Shown here piece after piece: positions 1 to 62,800 of a DNA stretch of 64,000 bases (positions are counted from its first letter, which is position 1; each line of letters opens with the position of its first letter). The translations under genes and the position numbers were made by a program. The stretch comes from Vogesella indigofera (GTDB lineage Bacteria; Pseudomonadota; Gammaproteobacteria; Burkholderiales; Chromobacteriaceae), in assembly GCF_003633895.1 (NCBI RefSeq), contig NZ_RBID01000014.1, positions 62,001 through 126,000 on the forward strand, written 5' to 3'. The notes beneath the pieces were generated by a model, which was not told the origin of the DNA, made no database searches, and saw only the letters and a program-made list of their open reading frames with translations.

Positions 1-760
1 GCGAGTAGACGGTTGCCGTGGCCAGCACTTCCGGCACGTCGCCGCCGACGATGCGCCGCGCCAGACCTTCGGCGATGGCGGTCTTGCCGACCCCGGCCTC
101 GCCGACCAGCAGCGGGTTGTTCTTGCGGCGGCGGCACAGGATCTGGATCACGCGCTCGACTTCGCTGGCACGGCCGATCAGCGGATCGATCTTGCCGTCG
201 CGGGCCAGCTGGTTCAGGTTCTGGGTATAGCTCTCCAGTGCCCGTCCAGGGTTGGCCGCGGCTTCTTCCTGGTCGGCATCATTGTTTTCGCTGTGCTCGC
301 TGCTGCCGGCACCGCTGGCTTTCGGGCTTTGCTTGGTGATGCCGTGCGAGATGAAGTTGACCACATCCAGGCGTGAGGTTCCCTGCTGGTGCAGGTAGTA
401 CACGGCATGGGAGTCCTTTTCGCCGAAGATCGCCACCAGAATGTTGGCGCCGGTGACTTCTTTTTTGCCGGAGGACTGCACGTGCAGGATGGCGCGCTGG
501 ATCACGCGCTGGAAGCCGAGCGTGGGCTGGGTTTCCACTTCGTTGTCACCCGGGACGATCGGGGTGTGTTCGTCGATGAAATCGCCCAGCTGTTTCTTCA
601 GCTGTTCGATATTGGCGCCACAAGCGCGCAACACTTCGGCAGCAGACGGATTGTCTGTCATCGCCAGCAGCAGATGCTCAACGCTGATGAGTTCATGCCG
701 CTTGCGCCGTGCCTCCATAAATGCCATGTGCAGGCTTACTTCCAGTTCTTGGGCAATCAT
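1..760 (-). CDS. clpA: ATP-dependent Clp protease ATP-binding subunit ClpA (N-terminal part; runs off the window)
   Basis: About 253 residues of the N-terminal half are visible. The protein starts [14 protein letters not shown], the classic ClpA repeat domain that docks ClpS. Around residues 217-226 it reaches the Walker A of the first AAA+ module (GEAGVGKTA, antisense of about 83-111). ClpA is the hexameric unfoldase that feeds N-end-rule and ssrA-tagged substrates to ClpP. The ATG at 760 shares one base with the clpS stop (TGATG), so translation is probably coupled. A GGAGGA-like Shine-Dalgarno lies inside the clpS 3' end. The C-terminus is beyond base 1. Confidence 0.96.
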
Positions 761-1068
761 CAGTTTTCCTCCATGACACACTGCAGCGGTTGCTGGTGCG
801 CCCGTGCGTGCTGCGAAACTTGTTCAACTTTGGTCGCGGCGACATCTTTAGTATAAACACCGCAAACGCCTTTGCCTTCTGTATGTACCTGCAACATGAC
901 GCGTGTTGCCTTGGTCTCGTCCATGTAAAAAAACTGCTGCAACACGGCGACCACAAAATCCATCGGGGTAAAGTCGTCGTTCAGCAGCAAGACCTTGTAC
1001 AGGGGGGGCGGGGCCGTCTTGCTGCGAGACGCCTTGAGCGTCGTGTCATCCTGATACTGCGTAGACAT
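760..1068 (-). CDS. clpS: ATP-dependent Clp protease adaptor ClpS
   Basis: This 102-residue protein has the usual ClpS length. Its core carries [19 protein letters not shown], the conserved NDD.TPM segment that binds N-degron residues, followed by the M-V-H-G-G-V-type strand seen here as [14 protein letters not shown]. ClpS delivers N-end-rule substrates to ClpA and inhibits ssrA-tag degradation. It is the first gene of the clpS-clpA operon and is divergent from the cold-shock gene across a 229-bp spacer. Confidence 0.97.
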
Positions 1069-1297
1069 GTGGGCTTTCTACTAATTCATGCTTGCTTGAA
1101 GTTTGGTTCGCGGTGCTTTTTTTTCAAGAGTAACGCATGGTATTGTGCTTGTCGCTTGACGTCTTAGTACGGCTGGCGTAAAAACGAACTGTAAGTTGGC
1201 TTACCAGTTTGCATAAGGTTGTCCTTTGCATGCTTGTAGGCTCGAATTGTCAGGCTGCTGCAGCCTGTTTTCATTATGCATGTAAGGATAGTTACAG
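1069..1297. promoter_or_regulatory. Divergent promoter region clpS / cold-shock gene with long cold-shock leader
   Basis: The spacer is AT-richer than its flanks. On the + strand, TTGACG (1156-1161) lies 17 bp before TAAAAA (1179-1184), a plausible sigma70 promoter. It would give a leader of roughly 105 nt in front of the cold-shock gene, as is typical for cspA mRNAs. A small hairpin, GTAAG-TTGG-CTTAC (1191-1204), sits at the predicted transcript start. The promoter assignment is by eye only. Confidence 0.45.
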
Positions 1298-1501
1298 ATG
1301 GCAACTGGTATTGTTAAATGGTTTAACGACGCTAAAGGTTTCGGTTTCATCACTCCTGATGGTGGTGGTGATGACCTGTTCGCGCACTTCTCCGCGATCA
1401 ATATGCAAGGTTTCAAAACCCTGACCGAAGGTCAGCGTGTATCTTTCGACATCGTCCAGGGCCCGAAAGGCAACCAGGCGTCGAACATCCAGGCTGCCTG
1501 A
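1298..1501 (+). CDS. Cold-shock protein, CspA family
   Basis: This 67-residue single OB-fold protein carries both nucleic-acid-binding motifs: RNP1-like KGFGFI (about residues 13-18) and RNP2-like DLFAHF (about 26-31). It binds single-stranded RNA/DNA and acts as an RNA chaperone. The codon choice (GGT, CGT, AAA) differs from the GC-ending codons of its neighbours, as in highly expressed genes. The leader is long and a strong terminator follows directly. The exact csp paralogue cannot be assigned. Confidence 0.96.
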
Positions 1502-1519
1502 TTTAGCCGCGTCTGACGC

Positions 1520-1553
1520 AAAACCCCCGCCAGCTGTGCTGGCGGGGGTTTTT
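1520..1553. terminator. Bidirectional intrinsic terminator between the cold-shock gene and mdtH-like gene
   Basis: A 13-bp stem AAACCCCCGCCAG / CTGGCGGGGGTTT (1521-1533 and 1539-1551) with a 5-nt loop has an A-run on the left and T-run on the right, so it can serve both convergent genes. Confidence 0.92.
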
Positions 1554-1566
1554 GCATGGTGCGGCC

Positions 1567-2793
1567 TCAGTGCGTGGGCTGTGCTGCCAGCCACCAGCGC
1601 CGCTGCCGCTCGGCGCCGCGGTCGGCCCGGAACTGGCGGTGCAGCAGCAGGCAGGTCAGGTAGCCGACCAGGCCGAGCACCAGCCACGGCAAACCGGGCT
1701 GCTGCAGCTGGCGGGCGATGTCCAGCAGCCAGCCGCCGCCGACATAGCCGCTGGCGCCACCCAGCGCCAGCCCCATGCGGCTCATGCCCATATAGCTGGC
1801 GCGGGCCTCGGCCCTGGCGAAGCCGGCGATGCGCGCCTCGCGTGGCGGCTCGGTGATGATGGTGCCGAGATAGAACAGCCCCAGAATGACGAAGGCGGGC
1901 TGCCAGGACTGGATCTGGCTCATCAGCAGCAGGCTGCTGCTCATCAGCAGGATGCCGGCCAGAATGCGCGCCTCCAGCGACAGATAGCGTTCGCCCAGCC
2001 GCGCCAGCGGGTACAGCAGGCTCAGCGACAGCAGCGTTTCCAGCGTGTACATCCAGCCGACGGCGGCGGCGGTGCCGGCCAGCTGTTTCAGCGTCACCGG
2101 CACCAGCAGCATGATCTGTACCCCCAGCGCGTAGTAGCCGCTGAGGATCAGCACGAAGCGCATATAGGCACGATCGCGCAGCACGGTGCGCGCTGCGGCC
2201 AACGGTGGCGCGCGTTTGCTGGCCACGCGGTAGGGCGGCAGCAGCAGCGCGTTGACCAGCGCCGCCAGCAGGAAGATGGCACAGCCGCTCATGCCGACCC
2301 ACCAGAAATCGTAGTGCAGCAGCCAGGAGCCGAGCAGGGCGCCGATCACCGCGCCGGCGCTGTCCTGCATCATCAGCAGGGTGTAGAAGCGGTTGCGCTC
2401 GTGCGGGCGGGTCAGCTTCACGATCAGCGCCGAGCGCGGCGGATCGAACAGCGTGCCGCCCAGCCCGGAGAACACGCAGGAGGCGATCAGCCACCACGGC
2501 GAGCTGGCGTTGGCCATCATCGCGAAGCCGGCGGCGCGCAGCAGCATGCCGCTGACGATCAGCGGCTTGGCGCCGTAGCGGTCGGCCAGCGTGCCACCAA
2601 GCAGACCCAGGCCCTGCTGCAGCAGCTGGCGGATGGCCAGCGCCACCCCGACCAGCGTGGCGGCCCAGCCGAGCCGGTCGACAAAGTGCAGGCTGATCAG
2701 CGGAAAGACGATGAAGAAGCCCATCACCACCAGCAGGTTGTCGGTCATGATGAACCATCGGCCGTAACGGCGGGCTTGTTCCGGGCTGGACAT
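1567..2793 (-). CDS. mdtH: MFS multidrug efflux transporter, MdtH-like
   Basis: This 408-residue inner-membrane protein has about 12 hydrophobic segments. Blocks match Escherichia coli MdtH closely from memory: DNLLVVMGFFIVFPLIS near the start, then FSGLGGTLFDPPRSALIVKL, and LLMMQDSAGAVIGALLGSWLL. MdtH is a proton-driven drug exporter. The ATG at 2793 (MSSPEQARRYGRW) matches the family start. An in-frame extension to 2856 would run into the regulatory spacer. It is divergent from a LysR regulator, its likely controller by context. The substrate is unknown. Confidence 0.85.
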   Translation of the reverse strand: MSSPEQARRYGRWFIMTDNLLVVMGFFIVFPLISLHFVDRLGWAATLVGVALAIRQLLQQGLGLLGGTLADRYGAKPLIVSGMLLRAAGFAMMANASSPWWLIASCVFSGLGGTLFDPPRSALIVKLTRPHERNRFYTLLMMQDSAGAVIGALLGSWLLHYDFWWVGMSGCAIFLLAALVNALLLPPYRVASKRAPPLAAARTVLRDRAYMRFVLILSGYYALGVQIMLLVPVTLKQLAGTAAAVGWMYTLETLLSLSLLYPLARLGERYLSLEARILAGILLMSSSLLLMSQIQSWQPAFVILGLFYLGTIITEPPREARIAGFARAEARASYMGMSRMGLALGGASGYVGGGWLLDIARQLQQPGLPWLVLGLVGYLTCLLLHRQFRADRGAERQRRWWLAAQPTH

Positions 2794-2887
2794 GATAGGC
2801 TTTCTGCAGGGTTGATAACGGCATTTTCCGCGCGCTTCAGTTATTATTGAAGCCATTAACTTGCAATATTTGCTATCCGGATTGCTT

Positions 2888-3775
2888 ATGTCTATTGCGA
2901 TGGATGACCTGCAGTTGCTGCTCGATATCGTGGCCTGCGGCAGTTTCAGCCAGGCGGCGGCGCGGCGTGGCTGGTCGCAGCCGCAGGTGAGCCAGCGCGT
3001 GGCGCTGCTGGAGGCCGAGGTCGGCGCACAGCTGTTTCGCCGCCACCGGCGCGGCGCCTTGCCGACGCCGGCGTGCGAGGCGTTCCTGCCGGCGGCGCAG
3101 CAGGCACTGGATGCGCTACAACGCGGGCGCGAGGCACTGCAGCGCGAGCCGGCGCTGCCACGGCTGACGCTGGCCAGCCTGCCGTCGCTGTCGTCGGTGA
3201 TCTTCGGCCCGGTGCTGCTGGCGCTGGCCGATGCCGCGCTGGAAATCCGCTGCAGTACCGATCATTCGCCGGCGATCATGGAACGCCTGCTGACCGGGCA
3301 GGCGCAGGTCGGCTTCGTGCTGCGCTGCCCGCCGATGGCCGGCATCCAGATGGAGCGTATCTGGCGCTCGCCGATGGTGGCGGTGGTGCACAACCGTCAC
3401 CCGCTGGCCAGCGCCGGCAGCCTGCAGCTGGCCGACATCGCCAACGAGCGGCTGGCGCCGCAGTACTGGGGTGAGGGCTGCGACGAGCTGCTGGCGCTGA
3501 TCCGCGCCGCGCGGCGGGTGGCCGGCCCGATCCACGCGGTGCAGCCGGCGGTGGCGGCGCGCGAGCTGGCGATGGAGCACGGTTTCCTGACCTTCATGCC
3601 GGAGGTGGCGGTGCGGCGCGACCTGCGCGATGGCCGGCTGGTGAAGCTGGCGCTGAGCGATCTGCCGCTGTGGGAGTGGGAGGTGATGATGGCGTGGCGC
3701 ACCGGCAAGCGCGCGGATGCGCCGTTGCAGCAGGTGCTGGACACCGTGCGCGCGCTGGCCGGCGAGTGGCGCTAG
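2888..3775 (+). CDS. LysR-family transcriptional regulator
   Basis: The protein is 295 residues. The N-terminal winged helix-turn-helix (DLQLLLDIVACGSFSQAAAR...QPQVSQRVALLEAEVGAQLF) is textbook LysR, followed by a periplasmic-binding-like effector domain. The start at 2888 (MSIAMDDLQ) was chosen; MDDLQ at 2900 is an alternative. It is divergent from the mdtH-like exporter with a 94-bp shared spacer, so it probably regulates that gene, but no effector can be inferred. Its stop codon overlaps a perfect 28-bp palindrome built from two copies of the GTTGGCCGCA word. Confidence 0.9.
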   Translation: MSIAMDDLQLLLDIVACGSFSQAAARRGWSQPQVSQRVALLEAEVGAQLFRRHRRGALPTPACEAFLPAAQQALDALQRGREALQREPALPRLTLASLPSLSSVIFGPVLLALADAALEIRCSTDHSPAIMERLLTGQAQVGFVLRCPPMAGIQMERIWRSPMVAVVHNRHPLASAGSLQLADIANERLAPQYWGEGCDELLALIRAARRVAGPIHAVQPAVAARELAMEHGFLTFMPEVAVRRDLRDGRLVKLALSDLPLWEWEVMMAWRTGKRADAPLQQVLDTVRALAGEWR

Positions 3776-3802
3776 CGTTGCGGCCAACGTTGGCCGCAAC
3801 GC
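3775..3802. repeat. Perfect palindrome made of two inverted DUS-like words
   Basis: Two 14-base halves, GCGTTGCGGCCAAC and its reverse complement, abut without a loop, starting at the last base of the LysR stop codon. Each half holds one copy of the recurrent word AACGTTGGCCGCA. It lies just before the icd terminator. Confidence 0.9.
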
Positions 3803-3824
3803 AAAAGGCCCGCCGTGGCGGGCC
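3803..3824 (-). terminator. Intrinsic terminator of icd
   Basis: The stem GGCCCGCC / GGCGGGCC (3807-3814 and 3817-3824) is followed, in icd orientation, by a TTTT run (3803-3806 antisense). Confidence 0.75.
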
Positions 3825-3845
3825 GGACTGGAAGGGCTGCGGGAT

Positions 3846-5090
3846 TTACATGCGCGCGATCATGGCGTCGCCGAAGGCGGAGCACGACACCTCGGTGGCG
3901 CCGTCCATCAGCCGCGCGAAGTCGTAGGTCACCTGCTTGTCGGCAATGGCGGCTTCCATGGCCTTGATCACCAGATCGGCGGCTTCCTTCCAGCCCAGGT
4001 GGCGCAGCATCATCTCGGCGGACAGGATCAGCGAGCCCGGGTTCACCTTGTCGAGGCCGGCGTACTTCGGCGCGGTGCCGTGGGTGGCTTCGAAGCAGGC
4101 GTAGTGGTCGGAGATATTGGCGCCGGGCGCGATGCCGATGCCGCCGACCTGCGCCGCCAGCGCGTCAGAGATGTAGTCGCCGTTGAGGTTGGTGGTGACG
4201 ATGGTGTCGTATTCAGCCGGCCGCAGCAGGATCTGCTGCAGGAAGGCGTCGGCGATCGCGTCCTTGACGATGATGTCGCGACCGGTGTGCGGGTTCTTGA
4301 ACTGGCACCACGGGCCGCCGTCGATCGCCTGGGCGCCGAACTCTTCCTGTGCCACCTTGTAGGCGACATCACGGAACAGGCCCTCGGTGAACTTCATGAT
4401 GTTGCCCTTGTGCACGATGGTCAGCGACTGGCGGTCGTTGGCGATCACGTACTTCAGCGCGGCGCGTACCAGGCGGGTGGTGCCCTCGATGGAGATCGGC
4501 TTGATGCCGATGCCGGAGCTGTCAGGGAAGCGGATCTTCCTGACTCCCATTTCCTGCTGCAGGAATTCGATGATCTTCTTGGCGCCTTCGGACTCGGCCG
4601 CCCATTCGATACCGGCGTAGATGTCCTCGGTGTTCTCGCGGAAGATCACCATATTGACCAGTTCCGGGTGCTTCAGTGGCGATGGCACGCCGTTGAAGTA
4701 CTGCACCGGGCGCACGCACTGGTACAGGTCCAGTTCCTGGCGCAGTGCCACGTTCAGCGAGCGGATGCCGCCGCCGACCGGGGTGGTCATCGGGCCCTTG
4801 ATCGACACCGCGTATTCCTTCAGCGCATCGAAGGTTTCCTTCGGCAGCCATTCGTCCGGGCCGTACAGACGGGTCGACTTCTCGCCGGCATAGACTTCCA
4901 TCCAGTGGATTTTCTTGTCGCCGCCGTAGGCCTTGGCCACCGCGGCATCAATGACCTTGATCATCACCGGGGTGATGTCGATGCCGATGCCGTCGCCTTC
5001 GATGAACGGGATGATCGGGTGGTTCGGAATCGGCTGGCCCGGGATGATCTTCTGTCCGCCGGCCGGAACCGTGATATGGGATGCGCTCAT
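3846..5090 (-). CDS. icd: NADP-dependent isocitrate dehydrogenase, homodimeric (prokaryotic type I)
   Basis: The protein is 414 residues, as in E. coli Icd. It oxidatively decarboxylates isocitrate to 2-oxoglutarate in the TCA cycle. The phosphorylatable serine loop [13 protein letters not shown] is intact at about Ser111 (E. coli Ser113), the target of AceK encoded 4 kb away. Also visible are [14 protein letters not shown] and the cofactor region HGTAPKYAG. The ATG at 5090 has the Shine-Dalgarno AGGAGAGG 7 nt upstream; a TTG one codon earlier is not needed. It lies downstream of a second, unrelated isocitrate dehydrogenase in the same orientation, separated by a terminator. Confidence 0.97.
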
Positions 5091-5394
5091 CAATACCTCT
5101 CCTTTGTGGACTCCATCTGTGTTGACCTGTGTCGTGGCAATCCGCGTTGCCGTCCCTGGCCTGTCGCACCCTGCGTGACCGAGGGCTGCCGTTTGTTATT
5201 GTTAGCTCAAGGTTGGCCGCAGCGGTATCGGTGTTTGCTGCCGTGCCACGCCGTTGCATTGTAGCCGAGCACGTGCTTGGTGGAACATGATCGACCGCAA
5301 GCGCTCATCGACGGCAAGAAAAAACGCCAGGGCGAGGCCCTGGCGTTGTCGGATGCTGGCAGTGCGGTCTGGCCGCGCTGCCCTTGCTTGCGGT
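5091..5394. other. Intergenic region between the two isocitrate dehydrogenase genes
   Basis: The 304-bp spacer holds the icd promoter/leader, one exact copy of the recurrent word AAGGTTGGCCGCA (5209-5221), and the terminator of the upstream gene (5317-5347). No small ORF with a convincing ribosome binding site was seen. Confidence 0.6.
5317..5347 (-). terminator. Intrinsic terminator of the monomeric isocitrate dehydrogenase gene
   Basis: An 11-bp stem AACGCCAGGGC / GCCCTGGCGTT (5323-5333, 5337-5347) with a GAG loop is followed by a T-rich tract on the minus strand. Confidence 0.9.
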
Positions 5395-8904: not shown

Positions 8905-10686
8905 ATGCAGATCCCCGAATACTACAACCCGGTGGCGCGCGAGATTGCGCAGGCGCTGGTGGACGGCTTCAACCGCCACTACCAGCTGTTTCGCGAGGTC
9001 AGCCAGCAGGCCAAGCAGCTGTTCGAGGACGCCGCGTGGCAGGGGGTGCAGCGGCTGGTACGCGACCGCATCCAGTTCTACGACGAGCGGGTGCACGAGA
9101 CGGTGCAGCGGCTGCAGCACCAGTTTCACGCCGACCTGCTGGACGACGAAATCTGGCAGCAGGCCAAGCTGTACTTCATCGGCCTGTTGACCAACCACAA
9201 GCAGCCGGAGCTGGCAGAGACCTTCTTCAACTCGGTGTTCACCCGCATCCTGCACCGCGACTACTTCAACAACGATTTCATCTTCATCCGCCCGGCGATC
9301 TCCACCGAGTACATCGAGTCCGACCCGCCGTCCTATCGCAGCTACTATCCCAAGCAGCGCGGCTTGCGCCACACGCTGCGCCAGATCGTGGCCGACTTCG
9401 GCTGGCGGCGGCCGTTTGCCAAGCTGTCGCGCGACCTGGCGTGGGTGATCCGCGCGGTGGACGAATACTTCGCGCAACGTTGGCCGCAGGCCGAGGCCAA
9501 CCTGCAGATCCAGCTGCTGTCCAGCGCCTTCTACCGCAACAAGACCGCCTACCTCTTCGGCAAGGTGGTGAATGGCGGCCAGGTCTACCCGTTTGCCGTG
9601 CCGGTACTGCACGACGCCGACGGCTGCCTGTACCTGGACACCGTGCTGCTGGAGCCGTGGCGCATCGGCGTGCTGTTCTCCTTCAGCCGCGCCTACTTCA
9701 TGGCCGACATGGAAGTGCCGTCCGGCTACGTGCAGTTTTTGCGCTCGATGCTGCCGACCAAGACCAAGGCCGAGCTGTACACCATGCTCGGGCTGCAGAA
9801 GCAGGGCAAGAACACCTTCTACCGCGACTTCATGCAGCACCTGCAGCACTCCAACGACCAGTTCACGGTGGCGCCGGGCATCCGCGGCCTGGTGATGCTG
9901 GTGTTCACCCTGCCGTCCTACCCCTACGTGTTCAAGCTGATCAAGGACGTGTTCGGCGGGCCGAAGGAGGTGGATCGTGCCACGGTGAAGGCCAAGTACC
10001 AGCTGGTGAAACGCCACGACCGCGTCGGCCGCATGGCCGACACGCTGGAGTTTTCCAACGTCGCGTTTCCCAAGGCGCGCTTCAGCGACGAGCTGCTGGA
10101 CGAATTGCGCCGGCTGGCCACCAGCAGCATCGAAGAAGGTCCGGACACGCTGGTGATCAAGCACCTGTACATCGAGCGGCGCATGAAGCCGCTGAACCTG
10201 TACCTGATGAACAGCGACACGGCGGAAAAGGAGCGCGTGGTGCGCGAGTACGGCGACGCGATCCGCGATCTGGCGGCGGCCAACATCTTCCCCGGCGACA
10301 TGCTGTTCAAGAACTTCGGCGTCACCCGTTACGGGCGGGTGATCTTCTACGACTACGATGAAATCGAGTACATGACCGACTGCCACTTCCGCCGCATTCC
10401 GCCGGCGCCGAACCCGGAAATGGAGCTGTCCGGCGAGGTGTGGTATCCGGTGGCGCGTAACGACGTGTTTCCGGAGGAGTTCGGCACCTTCCTGCTGGGC
10501 GATCCGCTGGTGCGGCGGGTATTTCTGCAGTACCACCGCGAGCTGCTGGACGCCGGCTTCTGGCAGCACAAGCAGCAGCGCATCCGCGATGGCTATATCG
10601 AGGACTTCTATCCCTACCCGGTGGAGCTGCGCTTCTGCCACCGCTACGCCGCCCGGCTGCGAGGGCAGGATGCCGGCGCGCCGTAA
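8905..10686 (+). CDS. aceK: Isocitrate dehydrogenase kinase/phosphatase AceK
   Basis: This 593-residue protein matches AceK across its length. The N-terminal regulatory half includes YDERVHETVQRLQHQF. The C-terminal kinase-like half has the P-loop-like segment PGIRGLVMLVFTLPSYPYVFK and the metal/catalytic region FYDYDEIEYMTDC. AceK phosphorylates and dephosphorylates dimeric Icd to divert isocitrate into the glyoxylate bypass. The usual partners aceB/aceA are not adjacent; instead both ICDH genes are within 5 kb upstream. One copy of the recurrent 13-mer lies in frame at 9476-9488, encoding RWPQ. Confidence 0.96.
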   Translation: MQIPEYYNPVAREIAQALVDGFNRHYQLFREVSQQAKQLFEDAAWQGVQRLVRDRIQFYDERVHETVQRLQHQFHADLLDDEIWQQAKLYFIGLLTNHKQPELAETFFNSVFTRILHRDYFNNDFIFIRPAISTEYIESDPPSYRSYYPKQRGLRHTLRQIVADFGWRRPFAKLSRDLAWVIRAVDEYFAQRWPQAEANLQIQLLSSAFYRNKTAYLFGKVVNGGQVYPFAVPVLHDADGCLYLDTVLLEPWRIGVLFSFSRAYFMADMEVPSGYVQFLRSMLPTKTKAELYTMLGLQKQGKNTFYRDFMQHLQHSNDQFTVAPGIRGLVMLVFTLPSYPYVFKLIKDVFGGPKEVDRATVKAKYQLVKRHDRVGRMADTLEFSNVAFPKARFSDELLDELRRLATSSIEEGPDTLVIKHLYIERRMKPLNLYLMNSDTAEKERVVREYGDAIRDLAAANIFPGDMLFKNFGVTRYGRVIFYDYDEIEYMTDCHFRRIPPAPNPEMELSGEVWYPVARNDVFPEEFGTFLLGDPLVRRVFLQYHRELLDAGFWQHKQQRIRDGYIEDFYPYPVELRFCHRYAARLRGQDAGAP

Positions 10687-13860: not shown

Positions 13861-13874
13861 AAGGTTGGCCGCAA
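13861..13874 (+). repeat. DUS-like word copy in the mutS upstream region
   Basis: An exact AAGGTTGGCCGCAA lies in the 96-bp gap between mutS and the diguanylate cyclase gene. Confidence 0.85.
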
Positions 13875-17885: not shown

Positions 17886-18892
<1,007 letters not shown>

Positions 18893-43835: not shown

Positions 43836-43864
43836 GTCAAGAGAAGCTACAACGCAGATTCGGT

Positions 43865-46999: not shown

Positions 47000-47179
47000 G
47001 GCGTAAGCGGGGTCTCCAGCGCAATGCCCGGGCAGGCTTGTTCTGGATTAAAGCCCGTGCCGGCGCGCCTGCCAATGCGGAATTACCCTTGCGGCGGCGA
47101 TTGTCAGCAGCCTGATACATTGCGGTGATGATGGCGACAACTTGCTGCGCTGAAATGGGCATCCGTATTGGAGGATGTC

Positions 47180-48361: not shown

Positions 48362-48362
48362 C

Positions 48363-50300: not shown

Positions 50301-50314
50301 TCAGGAACACAATC

Positions 50315-51691: not shown

Positions 51692-51763
51692 GGCGGTGTG
51701 CGTGACGGTGTCGCGTCGGCCTGGCGGCGGCCGGGGCGGCGGGGTGAACGGCACCGTACCAAG

Positions 51764-51797
51764 ACACCGTGACGCCATGGCGGCGTCACGGTGTTTT
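51764..51797 (+). terminator. Intrinsic terminator of the macAB operon
   Basis: The 13-bp stem ACACCGTGACGCC / GGCGTCACGGTGT with a 5-nt loop is followed by TTT. Confidence 0.88.
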
Positions 51798-51811
51798 CCT
51801 GTGTGCGGTTT

Positions 51812-51828
51812 AGATCGTGAACAGGTTC
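51812..51828. mobile_element. Solo terminal repeat of the 150-bp MITE-like family
   Basis: AGATCGTGAACAGGTTC is identical to the reverse complement of the left end of the element at 54407-54553. No body or second end is seen here. It directly abuts a DUS-like word. Confidence 0.7.
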
Positions 51829-51842
51829 CAAGGTTGGCCGCA
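51829..51842 (+). repeat. DUS-like word after the CDF transporter stop
   Basis: An exact CAAGGTTGGCCGCA lies 6 bp beyond the stop codon of the gene at 51848-52726, immediately next to the solo MITE end. Confidence 0.85.
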
Positions 51843-51847
51843 GGCGT

Positions 51848-52726
51848 TCACACCGGGTCGATGTGGGTCATCACGTCCAGCACCGGCTGGCTGCTCATCA
51901 CCCGCAGCCGCGCCGCGGCGGCGATGTCGTGGCCCTGGTGCACGGTCAGGTTGCCGTCGATCTCGAGGTGGACGTCGACCTGGATCTGGTCGGCCATGCG
52001 CCGCGTGCGCAGGTCGTGCACGCCCTGCACCCCCGGCGTCGCCAGCAGCGTGGCGCGGATGGCGGCCACGGTGTCCGCGTCAGCGGCGCGGTCCATCAGG
52101 TCGTGCAGCGCGTCCCAGGCGAAGCCCCAGCCGGTCTTGCCGACCATGAAGCCGACCAGCGCCGCCGCCAGCGGATCTAGCCAGCTGTAGCCGGCGAGGT
52201 TGCCGGCGATGCCCAGCGCCACCACCAGCGACGAGGCGGCATCGGCGCGCGCATGCCAGGCGTTGGCCACCAGCATGCTGGATTTGACTTCGCTGGCGAT
52301 CTTCAGCATGTAGCGGAACAGCAATTCCTTGGCCAGCAGCGTCAGCAGCGCGACCCACAGCGCCGCCTGGTGTACCGGCGCCAGCGGTGTGGCGCTGGTG
52401 ATCTTGTTGCCGGCGCCGAGCAGCATGCTGGCACCGGCGCCCAGCAGCAGCAGGCCCAGCGCCAGCGAGGCGGCGGTCTCGTAGCGCTGGTGGCCGTAGT
52501 GGTGGTCGTCGTCCGGCGCCTTGTGGCTGTGGCGGCGCGCCAGCAGCGCGACGAAGTCGGCGATCAGGTCGGACAGCGAGTGCAGCGCGTCGGCGACCAG
52601 CGCCTGCGAGCCTGCCCACAGCCCGGTGACGATCTGCAGCACGGTGAGCACGACGTTGACGGCGACGCTGAGCCACAGGCTGCGCTGTGCGGCCTGCTGC
52701 AGGGAGGGCGACGGATGCGGGTTCAT
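51848..52726 (-). CDS. Cation diffusion facilitator (CDF) family metal exporter
   Basis: A 292-residue protein with six membrane spans. The metal-site pattern appears in DALHSLSDLIADFVALLARRHSHK (HxxxD-like, about 48-70) and in HARADAASSLVVALGIAG (about 158-175). The C-terminal cytoplasmic domain carries the CDF LRTRRMADQIQVDVHLEIDGNLTVHQGHDI block. Probably exports Zn, Fe or Mn; the metal cannot be set from sequence alone. Upstream of it (toward higher coordinates) is an unknown gene in the same orientation. Confidence 0.92.
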   Translation of the reverse strand: MNPHPSPSLQQAAQRSLWLSVAVNVVLTVLQIVTGLWAGSQALVADALHSLSDLIADFVALLARRHSHKAPDDDHHYGHQRYETAASLALGLLLLGAGASMLLGAGNKITSATPLAPVHQAALWVALLTLLAKELLFRYMLKIASEVKSSMLVANAWHARADAASSLVVALGIAGNLAGYSWLDPLAAALVGFMVGKTGWGFAWDALHDLMDRAADADTVAAIRATLLATPGVQGVHDLRTRRMADQIQVDVHLEIDGNLTVHQGHDIAAAARLRVMSSQPVLDVMTHIDPV

Positions 52727-53420: not shown

Positions 53421-54407
53421 ATGACAGCCAACTCCCTGCACCCCTTTTCGCGCCTGACCCCGGATTTCCTGCTCGATGCGGTGGAAAGCCTCGGCCTGCG
53501 CTGCGACGGCCGCCTGCTGGCGCTGAACAGCTACGAAAATCGCGTCTACCAGATCGGCATCGAGGACGGCACGCCGCTGGTGGCGAAGTTCTACCGCCCG
53601 GAGCGCTGGAGCGACGCGCAGATCCAGGAGGAGCACGACTTCGCCGCCGAGCTGGCCGCGCGCGACATCCCGGTGGTGACGGCGCTGGCCTTCGGCGGCC
53701 GCACGCTGCACCACTACCAGGATTTCCGCCTCGCGCTGTTCCCGCGCCGCGGCGGCCACGCGCCGGAGCTGGACGACGCGGACACCCTCGCCTGGCTGGG
53801 GCGCTTCCTCGGCCGCCTGCACGCGCACGGCGCGGTGGCGCCCTACCACTTGCGGCCAACCCTGGACCTCGACAGCTATGGCGAGGCCTCGCTGCGTTGC
53901 GTGCAGGAACAGGCGCAGCTGCCCTACGACCTGGCCACCCCTTACGAGCAGGCGGCACGACAGGCGTTGGACGAGGTGCGCCGCGCCTTCGACCGCGCCG
54001 GCGACATCAGCTGGCGCCGCGTGCACGGCGACTGTCACGTCGGCAACATCCTGTGGACGCAGGAGGGGCCGCACTTCGTCGATCTCGACGACAGCTGCAT
54101 GGCACCGGCGCTGCAGGACTTGTGGATGCTGCTCAGCGGCGACCGCGCGCAGCAACAGGCGCAGCTGCTGGAGCTGATCGTCGGCTACGAGGACTTCTGC
54201 GATTTCGACCGCCGCGAGCTGCACCTGCTGGAAGCGCTGCGCACGCTGCGCCTGCTGCACTACAGCGCGTGGCTGACGCGGCGGCGCGAGGATCCGGCCT
54301 TTGTCGTCGCCTTTCCGTGGTTCGATACCGCGCAGTACTGGCAGGAGCGCATTGTCGAACTGCAACAGCAGCTGGAGGCGATGCGAGAAGCCCCGCTCTG
54401 CGTCTGA
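53421..54407 (+). CDS. srkA: Stress response serine/threonine protein kinase SrkA (YihE)
   Basis: A 328-residue kinase of the aminoglycoside-phosphotransferase-like fold. ALNSYENRVYQIGIEDGTPLVAKFYRPERW (about 31-60) is the N-lobe, with the catalytic HGDCHVGNILW (about 203-213) and the metal Asp in FVDLDDSCMAP (about 219). It is implicated in countering stress-induced cell death in E. coli. The start MTANSLHPFSRLTPD (53421) fits the family. An unusual feature is the -10 box ending 7 bp before ATG and no Shine-Dalgarno, suggesting a leaderless message. Confidence 0.93.
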   Translation: MTANSLHPFSRLTPDFLLDAVESLGLRCDGRLLALNSYENRVYQIGIEDGTPLVAKFYRPERWSDAQIQEEHDFAAELAARDIPVVTALAFGGRTLHHYQDFRLALFPRRGGHAPELDDADTLAWLGRFLGRLHAHGAVAPYHLRPTLDLDSYGEASLRCVQEQAQLPYDLATPYEQAARQALDEVRRAFDRAGDISWRRVHGDCHVGNILWTQEGPHFVDLDDSCMAPALQDLWMLLSGDRAQQQAQLLELIVGYEDFCDFDRRELHLLEALRTLRLLHYSAWLTRRREDPAFVVAFPWFDTAQYWQERIVELQQQLEAMREAPLCV

Positions 54408-57654: not shown

Positions 57655-58404
57655 TCAGTCGACGCTGTCGGCGTACTGGAAGCGGTTGAGGATCTGCTGG
57701 TACAGGCCGTTGCCGTTGAGCGTGGCCAGCCCGCGGTTGAAGCGGTCGCGCAGCGCGGCAGAGCGGAAGGCGACGCGGTAGGGCAGCTTCTCGAACAGCA
57801 GGTGGTAGCTGACCGGCTGCACCACCTCGCGGAAGTCGCTGACCACGCGCTGGTTCATGTACTTGAAGATGCGCTGGTCGGCGACCACCACGTCGATCAG
57901 GTGGCGGTACAGCAGCCGGTTCTGGTCGACCTGGTTGCCGGTCTCGCCGTAGCGCGGATTGTTCGCCGCCATGCGCGCGAACTCGGCGCCCAGGTACTGA
58001 GTCGCCAGCGGAAAGGCGGAGATGCTGTACTTGCCCAGCTCGGCCACCTCGCGCAGCTGCAGGTTGCGGCTGCGCAGGGTGACGGCGACATCCTCGTAGT
58101 AGACGTAGGGCTCGGAATAGGCCGCCTTCAGCCCGGAATCGGGGCGGATGGTGGCAATGGCGTCGATGCGCGGGTTTTTCAGCGCCAGCGGCAGCCGCTT
58201 CTGCGCCATGAACACCGGCTGCATGCCCAGCCCCTCGGCGCGCAATGCCTCGCGGATGATCTCCACCTCGATACCGGATGCCTGCTGCGGCATCACGTAC
58301 GGCTCCAGCGATTCGCCGAAGGCGACGTTCAGCACCTGCGCTGCGGCCAACGTTGGATACAGGCTCAACAGCACGGCGGGCAGCAGACGGTAATGACGGC
58401 TCAT
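57655..58404 (-). CDS. Periplasmic substrate-binding protein, amino-acid (SBP_bac_3) type
   Basis: A 249-residue secreted protein; the signal peptide MSRHYRLLPAVLLSLYPTLAAA is followed by a type II binding fold starting VLNVAFGESLEPYVMPQQASGIEVEIIREALRAEGL. The stretch PRIDAIATIRPDSGLKAAYSEPYVYYEDVAVTL is typical of polar amino-acid binding proteins. No transporter genes are adjacent, so it may be a stand-alone sensor-like or orphan protein. The start at 58404 has AGGA 8 nt upstream; ATG at 58413 is possible. A recurrent-word copy at 58341-58353 lies in the signal region. Confidence 0.82.
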   Translation of the reverse strand: MSRHYRLLPAVLLSLYPTLAAAQVLNVAFGESLEPYVMPQQASGIEVEIIREALRAEGLGMQPVFMAQKRLPLALKNPRIDAIATIRPDSGLKAAYSEPYVYYEDVAVTLRSRNLQLREVAELGKYSISAFPLATQYLGAEFARMAANNPRYGETGNQVDQNRLLYRHLIDVVVADQRIFKYMNQRVVSDFREVVQPVSYHLLFEKLPYRVAFRSAALRDRFNRGLATLNGNGLYQQILNRFQYADSVD

Positions 58405-58682: not shown

Positions 58683-60980
58683 ATGACGCTTCCTGCCGCA
58701 CCACAACCGATCAACAGTTACCGCAAATACTGGGCGCAACGCTTCGGCACCGCGCCGTTCCTGCCGATGAGCCGCGCCGAGATGGACGAGCTGGGCTGGG
58801 ATTCCTGCGACATCATCATTGTCAGCGGCGACTGCTACATCGACCATCCGAGCTTCGGCATGGCGCTGATCGGACGGCTGCTGGAGGCGCAGGGCTTCCG
58901 CGTCGGCATCATCGCGCAGCCGGACTGGAACAGCGCCGACGCCTTCCGCGAGCTGGGCAAGCCCAACCTGTTCTTCGGCGTCACCGCCGGCAACATGGAC
59001 TCGATGATCAACCGCTACACCGCCGATCGCCGCCCGCGCTCCGACGACGCCTACACCCCGCACGCCGAGGCCAACAAGCGCCCGGACCGCGCGGTGACGG
59101 TGTACGCGCAGCGCTGCCGCGAGGCCTATCCCGGCGTCGGCGTGATGATCGGCAGCATCGAGGCATCGTTGCGCCGCATCGCCCACTACGACTACTGGAG
59201 CGAGAAGGTGCGCCCGTCGGTGCTGGTGAACTCCAAGGCCGACATCCTGCTGTACGGCAACGCCGAGCGCGCGCTGGTGGAAATCGCCCACCGCGCCTCG
59301 CGCGGCGAGAAGCTGTCCGAGATGCGCGACATCCGCGGTACCGCCTTCGTGGTGCCGCACGGCTGGCTGCCGGACGAAGAATGGCAGGAGATGGACTCCA
59401 GCGTGGTCGACGTGCCGGGCAAGGTCGATGTCCACCTCAACCCGTACGAAGAGATTCCGGAACAGGCGGCCAAGGCCACCGCCGGCAACGATGCGGCCAA
59501 ACCGCAGGTGATCCGCATCGAGTCGCGCGAGGAGCGCCTGGCCAAGCGCCGCGCCGAACGCGCCAAGACCGTGATCCGCATCCCGTCCTACGAGGCAGTG
59601 GCGCATGATCCGGTACTGTACGCACACGCCAGCCGCACCCTGCACCTGGAATCCAACCCCGGCAACGCCCGCGCGCTGGTGCAGGGCCACGGCACGCGCG
59701 ACGTGTGGCTGACGCCGCCACCGATCCCGCTGACCACCGAGGAAATGGACTTCGTGTTCGGCGCGCCCTACGCCCGCAATCCGCACCCGAGCTATGGCGA
59801 CGCGCACATCCCGGCGTGGGAGATGATCAAGTACTCGGTCAACATCATGCGCGGCTGTTTCGGCGGCTGTACCTTCTGCTCGATCACCGAGCACGAAGGC
59901 CGCATCATCCAGAGCCGCTCGGAAGAGTCGATCCTGAAAGAGATCGAGGAAATCCGCGACAAGACGCCGGGCTTCACCGGCCACATCTCCGATCTGGGCG
60001 GCCCGACCGCCAACATGTACCGCCTCAGCTGCAAGGACCCGAAGATCGAGCGTTCCTGTCGCAAGCTGTCCTGTGTCTATCCCGACGTGTGCGAGAACCT
60101 CGGCACCGACCACGGCCCGCTGATCCAGCTGTACCGCAAGGCGCGCGCGCTGCCGGGCATCAAGAAGATCAACATCCAGTCCGGCCTGCGCTACGACCTG
60201 GCGGTGAAATCGCCGGAGTACATCAAGGAGCTGGTGCAGCACCACGTCGGCGGCTACCTGAAGATCGCGCCGGAACACACCGAAGAAGGCCCGCTGTCCA
60301 AGATGATGAAGCCGGGCATGGGCGCCTACGACAAGTTCAAGGAGCTGTTCGAGCGCTTCAGCCGCCAAGCCGGCAAGGAACAGTACCTGATCCCGTACTT
60401 CATCGCCGCCCACCCGGGCACCAGCGACGAAGACATGGTCAACCTGGCGCTGTGGCTGAAGAAGAACAACTTCCGCCTCGACCAGGTGCAGACCTTCACC
60501 CCGACGCCGATGGCGATGGCCACCACCATGTGGCACACCCGCCGCAACCCGCTGAAGCGCCTGTCCCGCAGCTCGGAAAAGGTGGATGTGGTGCGCGACG
60601 GCTACCGCCGCAAGCTGCACAAGGCGCTGCTGCGCTACCACCACCCGGACAACTGGCAGATCATCTACGAGGCGCTGATCGACATGGGGCGTGGCGACCT
60701 GATCGGCCACAGCAAGCAGTGCCTGATCCCGCCGACACCGCCGGGCGACAAGGCCGCCGCCGCGCGCCACCGTTTCGGTCAGCAGCCGCTGGGCCGTGGC
60801 AAGCCGCAGGGCCAGCGCGCCCCGGCCGGCAGCCCGCGTGGCAGTGGCAAGACCTTCACCGCCAGCGCCAAACCGGCCGCCACCAAGGCGCCAGCCGGCA
60901 AACCCGCCGCCGCCAAGCCCAACACCGGTCGTGGCGGTGGTGGCGCCAAACCGGGCAGCAAGGTTGGCCGCAGCCGTTAA
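58683..60980 (+). CDS. YgiQ family radical SAM protein
   Basis: A 765-residue protein. A UPF0313-type N-terminal cobalamin-binding-like region ([34 protein letters not shown], about 42-75) precedes a radical SAM domain with CFGGCTFCS (about 396-404) holding the three cluster cysteines. The enzymatic role is unknown in this family. The last 75 residues are a basic Gly/Pro/Ala/Lys tail, and the final codons coincide with an exact recurrent-word copy (KVGRSR then stop). ATG at 58683 as in homologues; terminator follows. Confidence 0.92.
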
Positions 60981-60989
60981 CCGATAGTC

Positions 60990-61013
60990 AGCCGCCCTCC
61001 GGGGCGGCTTTTT
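60990..61013 (+). terminator. Intrinsic terminator of the ygiQ-like gene
   Basis: The 8-bp stem AGCCGCCC / GGGCGGCT with TCCG loop is followed by TTTT. Confidence 0.88.
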
Positions 61014-61070
61014 GCTGCCGCGCACGGCGCACCTTGCCGCCGCGGCGCGGTCGAACCCCCATCAGTCTTG

Positions 61071-61221
61071 GAACCTGTTTACGATCTGCTGCCACTGATA
61101 TCAATGGGGCGATACGGTGTTAAAAACGCCTTCGGCATGTTGGTTTATCTCCGGATAAACGCCGCTTCCTCCGCCGTTTTTGCCTTGTCTCGCGTGAGCT
61201 CGCGAGATCGTAAACAGGTTT
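61071..61221. mobile_element. MITE-like element, copy B
   Basis: The 151-bp element has inverted ends GAACCTGTTTACGATCT and AGATCGTAAACAGGTTT (16 of 17 pair), matching copy A with C-to-T changes that are mirrored in the other end. Internal motifs CGCCGCTTCCTC and CTTGTCTCGCGTGAGC are shared. It lies between the ygiQ-like terminator and selO, ending 21 bp before the selO ATG. Confidence 0.8.
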
Positions 61222-61242
61222 TTATAGCCAGAAAGCCAGATC

Positions 61243-62718
61243 ATGCCCCTCATCGCCTTCGATAACAGCTACGCCCGCGACCTGCCGCAACACGCGGTGC
61301 CATGGCAACCGGCCATCCCGCCGCAACCGCAGCTGCTGTACTGGAACGCCGCGCTGGCACAGGAACTGGGGCTGGATAGCGCGACAGTCGCACCGGAAAC
61401 GCTGGCTGCCCAGTTTTCCGGCGCGGTGCTGCCGGACGGTGCGCAGCCGATCGCGCAGGCCTACGCCGGCCACCAGTTCGGTGGCTACTCGCCGACGCTG
61501 GGCGACGGCCGCGCACTGCTGCTGGGCGAGGTAATCGACCGCTGCGGCCAACGTCGTGACCTCGCTTTCAAGGGCAGCGGCCGCACCCCGTTCTCGCGTC
61601 GCGGCGACGGCAAGGCGGCGGTAGGGCCGATGCTGCGCGAGCTGATCATCGGCGAGGCGATGCAGGCGCTGGCCATTCCCACCACCCGCGCGCTGGCGGT
61701 AGTGGCCACCGGCGAGACCGTGTCGCGCGAACGGCCTCTGCCCGGCGCGGTGCTGACCCGCGTCGCTGCCAGCCACCTGCGCGTCGGCACCTTCGAATAC
61801 TTCGCCAACGGCGAGGACGAGGACGCGCTGCAGCAACTGGCCGACTACGCCATCCGCCGCCACGATCCGGCGCTGCTGGGTGCGGCCAACCCTTATCTTG
61901 CCTTCCTCGACGCGGTGTGCCGGCGCCAGGCGCGGCTGATTGCCCAGTGGATGCACGCCGGCTTCATCCACGGCGTGATGAACACCGACAACATGACCAT
62001 CAGCGGCGAAACCATCGACTACGGCCCGTGCGCGTTCATGGACGCCTATGACCCGGCCACCGTGTTCAGCTCCATCGACGAGCGCGGCCGCTACGCCTAC
62101 GGCAACCAGCCCGCCATCGCGCAGTGGAACCTGGCGCGGCTGGCGGAAACGCTGCTGCCGCTGCTGGACGCCGAATCGCAGCAACAGGCCGTGGCGCAGG
62201 CCACCGACGTCATCCACCGCTTTGTCGATCATTACCGCGAACAGTGGCTGGCGCAGGCGCGGCGCAAGCTCGGCCTCTACACGGCAGAGGACGACGACCA
62301 GCAGCTGGCAGACGACTGGCTGGCGCTGCTGCAGGCACAGAAGGCGGACTTCACCCTTTGCTGGCGCTACCTTGCCGACGCGGTGGATGGCGACGGTTCA
62401 AGGTTGGCCGCACAGTTTGCCGATCCGGCCGCGTTGCAGCCGTGGCTGGCGCGCTGGCAGCAACGCCTCGCCGCCGAGCCGCAAGCCGCCGCCGTGCGCG
62501 CCAGCGCGATGCGCGCACTCAATCCGCTGTACATCGCGCGCAATCATCTGGTGGAAGAAGCGCTGGCCGCCGCCAGCGAACACGGCGACATGAGCCTGAC
62601 GCTGCGCCTGCTGGACGTGCTGGCCGACCCGTTCACCGAACGTGACGGGCGGGAGCGCTACGCGCTGCCGGCGGCGCCGGAGCTGGCGGCCGGTTACCGC
62701 ACCTTCTGCGGCACGTGA
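61243..62718 (+). CDS. selO: Protein adenylyltransferase SelO (YdiU)
   Basis: A 491-residue pseudokinase-fold AMPylase. AQAYAGHQFGGYSPTLGDGRALLLGEV (about 71-98), DLAFKGSGRTPFSRRGDGKAAVGPMLRE (about 105-132), and HGVMNTDNMTISGETIDYGPCAFMD (about 244-267) are family signatures. The C-terminus is FCGT, with Cys in the place of the selenocysteine of eukaryotic SelO. It transfers AMP to hydroxyl residues of target proteins and supports oxidative-stress resistance. Four in-frame recurrent-word cores occur or nearly so (61542, 61881, 62400). The MITE end is just upstream and could supply promoter sequence. Confidence 0.93.
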   Translation: MPLIAFDNSYARDLPQHAVPWQPAIPPQPQLLYWNAALAQELGLDSATVAPETLAAQFSGAVLPDGAQPIAQAYAGHQFGGYSPTLGDGRALLLGEVIDRCGQRRDLAFKGSGRTPFSRRGDGKAAVGPMLRELIIGEAMQALAIPTTRALAVVATGETVSRERPLPGAVLTRVAASHLRVGTFEYFANGEDEDALQQLADYAIRRHDPALLGAANPYLAFLDAVCRRQARLIAQWMHAGFIHGVMNTDNMTISGETIDYGPCAFMDAYDPATVFSSIDERGRYAYGNQPAIAQWNLARLAETLLPLLDAESQQQAVAQATDVIHRFVDHYREQWLAQARRKLGLYTAEDDDQQLADDWLALLQAQKADFTLCWRYLADAVDGDGSRLAAQFADPAALQPWLARWQQRLAAEPQAAAVRASAMRALNPLYIARNHLVEEALAAASEHGDMSLTLRLLDVLADPFTERDGRERYALPAAPELAAGYRTFCGT

Positions 62719-62761
62719 CCTTGGCCGGATAACTCCTGTTGATCTGATCAATGAAGGAATG

Positions 62762-62800
62762 AAGGTTGGCCGCAAACCATGACGGTTTGCGGCCAACCTT
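62762..62800. repeat. Inverted pair of DUS-like words forming a 17-bp hairpin after selO
   Basis: AAGGTTGGCCGCAAACC (62762-62778) and its perfect complement (62784-62800) flank the loop ATGAC, 43 bp after the selO stop. It is the best candidate terminator of selO, with only TT after the stem. Confidence 0.93.

Follow-up and report, generated by a model that had tools for sequence, protein, structure and literature searches.

Self-recognising DNA uptake by means of a word repeated throughout the genome has, in the literature that we found and as far as the available parts of it go, been described for two families, the Neisseriaceae and the Pasteurellaceae. The eight published dialects of the Neisseriaceae DNA uptake sequence (DUS) all share the trinucleotide CTG in the portions of the papers available to us (PMC3630211, PMC12061091, PMC12616744), where CTG is regarded as universal, DUS-guided uptake is considered to have arisen after the split between Neisseriaceae and Chromobacteriaceae, and the earlier-studied members of the Chromobacteriaceae are reported to be without such labels. 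Among the literature matches listed, which covered few preprints and subscription papers, we recognised no report of GTTGGCCGCA as an uptake word and none of a DUS in the Chromobacteriaceae; for Vogesella these matches held no uptake, binding or transformation data. The hosts, Vogesella and its family, are freshwater, non-model bacteria.

The window analysed here is a stretch of 64 kb of a Vogesella genome (G000). Its commonest 10-mer is GTTGGCCGCA, present in 43 exact copies, 24 on the plus and 19 on the minus strand, the first at 2194 and the last at 62788, against an expectation of 0.4-1.9 under Markov models of orders 1-5 (Poisson P <= 1e-42). Eighteen of these copies extend to AAGGTTGGCCGCA and eight to AACGTTGGCCGCA. 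The preliminary description of this DNA had counted about 44 copies split 25/19, which comes close, and 18 exact AAGGTTGGCCGCA, which agrees; 18 of its 20 example coordinates are exact (as starts of the 13-mer on the plus and of the core on the minus strand), 43174 and 58341 are one base off each, and there is no exact GTTGGCCGCA near position 250, where its range began. By exact match, AAGGTTGGCCGCA lies on the plus strand at 5209-5221, 13861-13873, 18613-18625, 29522-29534, 33094-33106, 33539-33551, 44503-44515, 51830-51842, 60960-60972 and 62400-62412, and on the minus strand at 17855-17867, 27624-27636, 30426-30438 and 47740-47752; two intergenic inverted pairs of AAGGTTGGCCGCA occupy 41509-41539 (plus core at 41512, minus core at 41527) and 62762-62800 (plus core at 62765, minus core at 62788). 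AACGTTGGCCGCA is found at 9476-9488, 43173-43185, 49055-49067 and 50383-50395 (plus) and at 44226-44238 and 58342-58354 (minus), and the core GTTGGCCGCA at 23886-23895, 25505-25514, 26851-26860, 31240-31249, 39653-39662, 43448-43457 and 46867-46876 (plus) and at 2194-2203, 12042-12051, 16589-16598, 25822-25831, 34329-34338, 38063-38072, 42416-42425, 53851-53860, 61543-61552 and 61881-61890 (minus). At 3779-3798 two abutting inverted cores (minus at 3779, plus at 3789) form the intergenic palindrome TGCGGCCAACGTTGGCCGCA. The over-representation extends to the whole Vogesella genome (3.6 Mb), as had been proposed for checking, with 2,057 copies of GTTGGCCGCA against 9 (4 + 5) of the reversed word; its single-mismatch versions show no overall enrichment (131 vs 127 expected).

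The distribution of the word was followed across the family and the order, with a k-mer survey that drew on 164 kb of the Vogesella genome itself and on a 100 kb stretch of 11 further genomes each. All 13 Vogesella genomes carry 1,871-2,895 copies of GTTGGCCGCA, about one per 1.4-2.1 kb, and the remaining 48 Chromobacteriaceae genomes have 8-58 copies each. Sister genera have words of their own, GTTGGCCGAG in 2 genomes and GTTGGCCGAA in 8; in G036 the word is mixed (579 AA + 165 AG), and G047 was counted as word-bearing at just 183 copies in a fragmented genome that is 84% complete. No comparable word was found in 100 kb from one genome each of g2, g3, g4 and g8, a sample from which a rare or longer word could escape. 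Order-wide, GTTGGCCGCA, GTTGGCCGAG and GTTGGCCGAA do not exceed 223 copies in 386 genomes from 50 other families. The Neisseria word GCCGTCTGAA has 2-12 copies in the 12 Chromobacteriaceae genomes tested and, as a positive control, 247-4,285 in a single Neisseriaceae genus (9 genomes). With at least two sister words beside it in the family, GTTGGCCGCA goes beyond the oddity of one genus; the single new uptake dialect suggested by the preliminary description is supported as a probable one, and was too narrowly drawn.

We consider it very probable (roughly 0.88) that CAA(G/C)GTTGGCCGCA serves Vogesella as its DNA uptake sequence, read by ComP of the competence pilus and spread by drive. Observed directly are the words, with their counts, spread, location and preservation, and the genes for ComP, ComEC and DprA. 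The steps that we infer, namely binding by ComP, preferential uptake and drive, would fit together as follows. A competence pilus would carry the minor pilin ComP homologue, encoded beside a FimT-like pilin gene, and this homologue would bind CAA(G/C)GTTGGCCGCA on free duplex DNA; DNA of kin would thereby be drawn in, pass through ComEC as a single strand, gain protection from DprA and recombine. Because marked DNA would be taken up preferentially, copies of the word would spread and be kept by recombination (molecular drive), persisting mostly at permissive sites, namely the ends of genes, hairpins where two genes converge and, within genes, whatever frame is tolerated. In sister genera GTTGGCCGAA or GTTGGCCGAG would be paired with a ComP of their own. 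The com and pilin genes whose presence was to be checked are encoded in the Vogesella genome, as a ComP homologue, ComEC and DprA; ComEC is found in 59 of the 61 family genomes, G000 included, with no match in G057 and G058.

The gene of the ComP homologue lies on the minus strand at G000:C11:94160-94585. In phmmer searches its soluble domain matches the Neisseria ComP structures 2nba (7.9e-10), 2m3k (4.4e-7) and 5hz7 (2.3e-6); the 2nba match (42 bits, residues 40-137) reaches beyond the common pilin helix and ranks fifth, the best E-values being those of major pilins via the shared N-terminal helix. Pfam ComP_DUS gives the homologue 46 bits and another minor pilin of the genome 70.6 bits, and the genome has ten N_methyl (pilin-type) matches. 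ComP was called by the motif W[PA]..L[PA] within the domain, with loci drawn from 30 + 29 of the 61 family genomes, and is kept in 28 of the 38 word-less genomes, so that the presence of ComP is by itself no predictor of the word; in both word-less genomes checked (G013 and G029) it sits in the same gene cluster as in word-bearing genera. Word-less genomes G011, G015, G023 and G030-G033 gave only pilins classed as PilE-type, G016 had no ComP in the stretch examined, and G040 and G043 were left out of the ComP set. In the ComP tree (140 columns, several long branches) a branch with support 98/92 puts the Neisseria and family ComPs together and shuts off the PilE-type pilins; Neisseria ComP has another pilin of Neisseria as its first partner (98/71), and need not be a strict orthologue of the Chromobacteriaceae ComP. 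An order-wide profile search also found pilins of family f41 whose scores equal those of Neisseriaceae ComPs (up to 5e-34); the one placed in the tree fell among the PilE-type pilins.

It is unlikely that GTTGGCCGCA is an uptake sequence with a receptor other than ComP, for example the FimT-like pilin, whose gene directly adjoins comP in G000 (Pfam GspH 17.7, below the cut-off of 21). FimT mediates DNA uptake in other bacteria, according to the part of the source available (PMC8897410), and the Vogesella ComP lacks the DNA-binding DD region, which in Neisseria ComP has two disulfides (four cysteines) in the accessible part of its description (PMC4906244). Soluble-part cysteines number 2 in 12 of the 13 Vogesella ComPs, 3 in one and 4 in 6/6 Neisseria ComPs, from which the DD region is judged absent in Vogesella; the median net charge of the soluble part is +2 in Vogesella, -1 in the AA/AG genera and +6 in Neisseria. 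Against another receptor stands the loop that aligns with the DNA-binding beta1-beta2 loop of ComP, the motif N[TVA]D.[GD] being present in 22 of 23 word-bearing genomes (the exception is G045) vs 0 of 28 word-less genomes with ComP, an association that falls short of significance on the ComP tree because it comprises only 2-3 changes (one contrast when starred branches are counted, 2-3 over all branches). Both the loop and the cysteines were judged from alignment.

Placement relative to genes was analysed in 464 kb of the Vogesella genome (the window and C1:1-400000), with genes called by our own codon-usage script. Intergenic positions hold 97 of the 238 copies of GTTGGCCGCA and make up 13.9% of the sequence; in the window 13 of 43 copies are wholly intergenic and 11% is noncoding. 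The clustering just after stop codons that had been described is borne out, since of 129 spacings measured between an intergenic copy and a neighbouring stop codon, 73 are 60 bases or fewer. Density is 3.27/kb between convergent, 1.54 between co-directional and 0.36 between divergent genes, and all 27 close pairs are inverted, 9 of them without spacer. This enrichment between convergent genes, with rarity between divergent ones, and the inverted pairs are what would be expected if GTTGGCCGCA were chiefly an element of transcription terminators or RNA 3' ends that had multiplied, with no part in uptake, an explanation that we regard as very improbable. Only 54 of the 238 copies sit in close pairs, T-runs of at least 4 stand beside 7 of 27 inverted pairs vs 12% of random intergenic places, and 139 of the 238 copies fall within genes, in either orientation (73/66) and in all frames (the preliminary description had noted different frames), on which ground a pure terminator was rejected. 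Inside genes the codon-matched null gave 6.1 +/- 2.2 copies (maximum 12 in 200 shuffles) vs 140 observed, about 23 times expectation; the preliminary description had named a count no higher than this expectation as a refutation, and that outcome did not occur. The uptake words of Neisseria and Pasteurellaceae also occur frequently in terminators, in the part of the source available (PMC13020248), and terminator-like placement is therefore no argument against uptake.

The very high copy number, the conservation and the GGCC contained in GTTGGCCGCA could also be accommodated by a chromosome-maintenance motif (Chi, KOPS or macrodomain-type), a nucleoid-protein site or a methylase site, for which we see scarcely any chance. 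The absence of strand polarity that the preliminary description had argued from mixed orientations holds genome-wide (1040 plus, 1017 minus; P 0.63) and along 400 kb of one contig, where the split is near even in seven of eight 50 kb steps and 23/12 in the other; a strand-polarised motif was rejected on this balance, and the strong polarity that the preliminary description had named as a refutation of its reading is not seen. The words moreover vary from genus to genus in the one family, while other genera and an island lack them, and intergenic enrichment and inverted pairs fit such a role poorly. The island is the largest GTTGGCCGCA-free gap in the single 400 kb stretch, 26.2 kb against a random maximum of 12.1 kb (mean; 99% 19.4 kb), and its low-GC sequence carries transposition and defence genes, as judged from searches of 10 of the 36 called proteins of the four largest gaps. 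Two further gaps of 9-10 kb were seen on C1. At 14 sites aligned across 8 genomes, the core was intact in 40 of 43 close-species cells vs 220 of 415 flank 10-mers, and in 13 of 19 distant cells vs 30 of 190 flank 10-mers, comparisons whose Fisher values assume independence among related genomes and among adjacent 10-mers; in the window, the cores at 38063, 44226-44238 and 46867 are intact in 8/8 aligned Vogesella genomes and that at 39653 in 3/8. DUS-like behaviour, as the preliminary description had proposed, is therefore seen in strand balance, frames, intergenic enrichment, inverted pairs, conservation above flanks and the gap at the transposon/defence island. A dispersed mobile repeat (REP- or MITE-like), suggested by the short palindromes that some copies form, was rejected and has next to no probability because flanks are unique, with little shared sequence outside about -4 to +10 of the core and many copies single and inside genes.

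On a wider scale, there is somewhat less than an even chance that these words represent a second great DUS/ComP branch outside the Neisseriaceae, with at least three dialects on the core GTTGGCCG, without CTG, read chiefly via the beta1-beta2 loop of DD-less ComP homologues, and that uptake of this kind is older than the parting of Neisseriaceae and Chromobacteriaceae, several genera having lost it. If so, some genera that lost the word would keep a ComP with an altered loop, and the published post-split origin and universal CTG would be contradicted; this reading is weakened because Neisseria ComP groups first with the second Neisseria pilin. A third family with its own dialect set and a DD-less candidate receptor would offer a natural experiment in the reading of DNA by ComP and in the joint change of word and receptor, and close relatives with and without word and loop motif (G010 vs nine congeners) make specificity testable by loop swaps. 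DNA meant to transform Vogesella would probably need GTTGGCCGCA.

Among known systems, FimT-type DNA-binding minor pilins have a parallel in the FimT-like gene adjoining comP; we know of no genome-wide word for FimT. The Pasteurellaceae uptake signal sequence is alike in function and genomic behaviour (PMC2397512, PMC12616744) and differs in its unrelated word AAGTGCGGT and in its candidate receptor PpdA/ComN (PMC12616744), as far as the available parts of these papers go. From the Neisseriaceae DUS, Vogesella is set apart by belonging to another family, the Chromobacteriaceae, with a core GTTGGCCG without CTG, and by one cysteine pair in ComP, not two. Where the Neisseriaceae DUS has CTG at +6 to +8 and A at +10, AGGTTGGCCGCA in register has CCG and keeps the final A, whereas the Chromobacteriaceae AG word ends in G instead. 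Compared with the AG-simDUS dialect, in what we take to be its sequence, the family word AGGTTGGCCGAA agrees in register at 9 of 12 positions (against shuffled words, P 0.0046 in register and P 0.0155 when either strand and offsets of at most two are allowed), which is suggestive of a possible remote common origin with the Neisseriaceae dialects. The earlier statement that no core is shared with GCCGTCTGAA is thus true for CTG and overlooks this match. In the available parts of the sources, the Neisseriaceae DUS resembles the Vogesella word in being a non-palindromic word of 10-13 bases on both strands, found in intergenic inverted pairs and conserved above its flanks (PMC3630211, PMC2397512), split into genus-level dialects and, as the widest gap of the 400 kb examined may suggest for Vogesella, scarce in acquired DNA. 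Vogesella further shares a ComP-family minor pilin and ComEC with the Neisseriaceae, and the density of its word, 2,057 copies in 3.6 Mb, is like that of GCCGTCTGAA in the control genomes.

Forty-three exact copies of the 10-base core word GTTGGCCGCA are present in the 64-kb window (24 on the plus and 19 on the minus strand; G+C 66.3%), where no 10-mer is commoner and where Markov models of orders 1 to 5 trained on the window predict 0.4 to 1.9. The 13-base form AAGGTTGGCCGCA makes up 18 of these copies and AACGTTGGCCGCA another 8, in agreement with the preliminary description, which had counted about 44 cores and about 18 exact 13-mers on mixed strands. The whole genome of Vogesella indigofera, in which the window occupies C3:62001-126000, comprises 3.62 Mb in 20 contigs and carries 1040 and 1017 copies on its two strands, so that the strand polarity which might have pointed to another kind of signal is absent; the reversed word, used as control, occurs 4 and 5 times. 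The 238 copies in 464 kb (the window and C1:1-400000 of the same genome) give the consensus C (0.67), A (0.79), A (0.82), G/C (0.62/0.33), GTTGGCCGCA, A (0.46), with little beyond. Words with one mismatch showed no summed enrichment (131 against 127 expected), though the final base is looser.

Across the same 464 kb, 97 copies are intergenic, in 13.9% of the sequence, 139 are intragenic and two lie at gene edges. Within genes 73 copies run along the gene and 66 opposite to it, all six frames are used, if unequally, and the intragenic count of 140 compares with 6.1 +/- 2.2 after synonymous-codon shuffling, an excess over codon-matched expectation, the absence of which the preliminary description had named as refuting an uptake word. 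Density depends on the neighbouring genes, with 3.27 copies per kb between convergent, 1.54 between co-directional and 0.36 between divergent genes. All 27 pairs of neighbouring copies at most 60 bases apart are inverted; 23 of these are fully intergenic and nine have no spacer. A T-run of at least four adjoins 7 of the 27 inverted pairs, against 12% of random intergenic places, which hints faintly at a use as terminator. Abutting inverted cores form a perfect 20-base palindrome, TGCGGCCAACGTTGGCCGCA, at window 3779-3798 and at eight places in C1:1-400000. Overlapping dyads of the DNA uptake sequence (DUS) are described in Simonsiella, and dimeric recognition was suggested by the authors (PMC3630211).

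The distribution of the word was addressed in 61 genomes of ten genera of the family as sampled here. All 13 Vogesella genomes hold 1,871-2,895 copies of GTTGGCCGCA and the remaining 48 hold 8-58. In a 10-mer survey (order-4 Markov model; 164 kb of the V. indigofera genome and 100 kb from each of 11 others) a GTTGGCCG word ranked first in 8 of the 12 genomes: GTTGGCCGCA in three Vogesella, GTTGGCCGAG (the AG word) in G034 and GTTGGCCGAA (the AA word) in G037, G038, G045 and G048. No such word was prominent in the 100 kb surveyed of each of G002, G029, G030 and G039. In whole genomes the AA word is found 1368 times in G010, 579 in G036, 2168 in G037, 1245 in G038, 1851 in G045, 1104 in G046, 183 in G047 and 893 in G048, with 8-78 in the remaining 53; the AG word is found 1940 times in G034, 1590 in G035 and 165 in G036, with 13-92 in the remaining 58. 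Of the ten genomes of its genus (g2), G010 alone has a word. Intermediate counts, in G036 (579 AA, 165 AG), G047 (183 AA), G040 (62 AA, 92 AG) and G043 (45 AA, 85 AG), may reflect dialect change or decay.

For the order, GTTGGCCGMR was counted in 399 genomes, 13 from this family and 386 from 50 other families. It reached 1,304-3,107 in eight word-bearing family genomes and at most 223 in the 386 outside, where reversed-word controls were mostly similar in size. The control Neisseria word GCCGTCTGAA occurred 247-4,285 times in nine genomes of one genus taken as Neisseria, four times and twice in two further genera of its family, and 2-12 times in 12 genomes of the family of the window. NCBI places Vogesella in the Chromobacteriaceae, order Neisseriales. 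The family as sampled is not identical to that of NCBI, since one of its genera (g4) includes, with Craterilacuibacter sp. RT1T, also Crenobacter caeni, whose genus NCBI files under Neisseriaceae.

The com and pilin genes that the preliminary description thought worth seeking are encoded in the genome, namely a homologue of ComP, the minor pilin that is the DUS receptor of Neisseria, together with ComEC and DprA. Among ten N_methyl pilin matches, the 142-residue pilin at C11:94160-94585(-) matches Neisseria ComP structures over the soluble domain (2nba, 7.9e-10; 2m3k, 4.4e-7; 5hz7, 2.3e-6); the E-values of four major-pilin entries are better still, owing to the shared N-terminal helix. Its Pfam ComP_DUS score of 46 bits is unspecific, as a PilE-like minor pilin at C5:200898, closest to other pilins, scores 70.6. 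The comP gene matches contigs of V. alkaliphila (94%), V. margarita (81%) and V. fluminis (85%). ComP relatives are found in 61 of 61 family genomes at E 1e-6, and 51 fall in the ComP class, defined by a motif within the domain. In G010, G013, G029, G034, G036 and G037 comP comes after a fimT-like gene and other conserved genes, taken from their order to be of minor-pilin type, within a single cluster; in Vogesella the fimT-like gene is the sole such neighbour found. ComEC is present in 59 of the 61 genomes. In V. alkaliphila (G049:C9:9030-9572) its match is split in two, perhaps by a frameshift or an error in the assembly. G011, G015, G016 and G023 (g3) and G030-G033 (g4) have ComEC, and the pilins retrieved for them are PilE-type or, in G016, do not span the domain; competence genes may therefore persist there without ComP.

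Neisseria ComP binds DNA through the DD region, with two disulfides, and the beta1-beta2 loop, according to Berry et al. (2016; PMC4906244). In the stretch aligned to this loop, N[TVA]D.[GD] is found in 22 of the 23 word-bearing genomes (RNTDDG in V. indigofera) and in none of the 28 word-less genomes with a ComP; within g2, G010 has both word and motif and its nine congeners neither. These represent two to three changes on the tree, so the loop-word association comprises too few for a test. The sole word-bearing genome whose ComP lacks the motif is G045. It has two ComP-like pilins close together (L149, outside the window), and receptor duplication and change may thus be under way. Two cysteines lie in the soluble part of 12 of the 13 Vogesella ComPs, of 9 of 10 from other word-bearing genomes and of all 28 from word-less genomes, whereas each of the 6 Neisseria ComPs has four, which argues that the family ComPs, including those of Vogesella, have no DD region.

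Conservation was followed at 14 sites in window 38000-52000. Of the alignable cells in four close Vogesella genomes, 40 of 43 keep an intact core (flanking 10-mers, 220 of 415), as do 13 of 19 in four distant ones (flanking, 30 of 190). The longest word-free stretch in the 400 kb of C1 is 26.2 kb (random placement: mean maximum 12.1 kb, 99% 19.4 kb) and has a G+C of 55% against 63%. Searches with seven of the ten proteins called in it identified two IS-type transposases, a Mu/TniA-type transposase, a TniB protein, a DRT-type primase/reverse transcriptase, an Avs1a-like metallo-hydrolase and an HTH protein. The primase/reverse transcriptase, at C1:371668-379323 (L206, outside the window), joins a CHC2/Toprim primase to a reverse transcriptase in 2,551 residues; it falls in PADLOC DRT family RT_UG29 (2,728 bits) and lies with the TniA/TniB-type genes and the Avs1a-like protein. 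The next three gaps adjoin at 51.7-92.0 kb (about 58% G+C); of the 26 proteins called there, the three searched are a PifA-like KAP NTPase, a DUF932 protein and an RND pump. Neisseria DUS are likewise conserved, common in permissive core regions and missing from newly acquired genes (PMC2397512), a pattern which the Vogesella word resembles, the gap evidence coming from one contig stretch.

The word most likely serves Vogesella as a label for recognising its own DNA, and the receptor is most likely the candidate ComP, acting through its loop. The pilus-borne receptor would bind the word, the pilus would pull the bound DNA inward, and ComEC, DprA and recombination would complete the transfer; marked alleles would then spread and the word build up where it is harmless. 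Binding, uptake and drive are what we infer from the observed word, its placement and conservation, and the genes.

Among the matches listed in the literature search we found no description of this word as an uptake word. Frye et al. (2013; PMC3630211) report that five genomes from Laribacter, Lutiella, Pseudogulbenkiania and Chromobacterium lack a DUS, that BLAST detected no ComP in C. violaceum and that CTG is shared by all DUS dialects, and they conclude that the DUS system postdates the divergence from C. violaceum; later papers restate the eight dialects and CTG core (PMC12061091, PMC12616744). Chromobacterium and Pseudogulbenkiania belong to the same NCBI family as Vogesella. In the present analysis other genera of this family carry dense words lacking CTG, with a recognisable ComP. 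The Vogesella word is not a Neisseriaceae DUS dialect, since two defining features, CTG and a Neisseriaceae host, are absent. In an order-wide profile search Neisseriaceae ComPs are among the top matches outside the family, beside pilins of f41, another family of the order, and a 98/92 branch, in a tree of few columns and several long branches, parts Neisseria and family ComPs from PilE-type pilins. Neisseria ComP itself joins another pilin of Neisseria first (98/71), which counts against simple orthology. Two Neisseria-like genomes (G187 and G257; L226 and L233, outside the window) carry a further gene for a ComP-like pilin close to comP, and that of G187 groups with Neisseria ComP on the tree. 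The family word AGGTTGGCCGAA is alike in 9 of 12 places to AG-simDUS (P 0.005-0.016 against shuffles). We put common ancestry with the Neisseriaceae DUS, followed by losses, at slightly under even odds; alternatively, the system may have arisen a second time with a related pilin. The Vogesella word appears, from sequence, to be DUS-like in behaviour and is accompanied by a relative of ComP.
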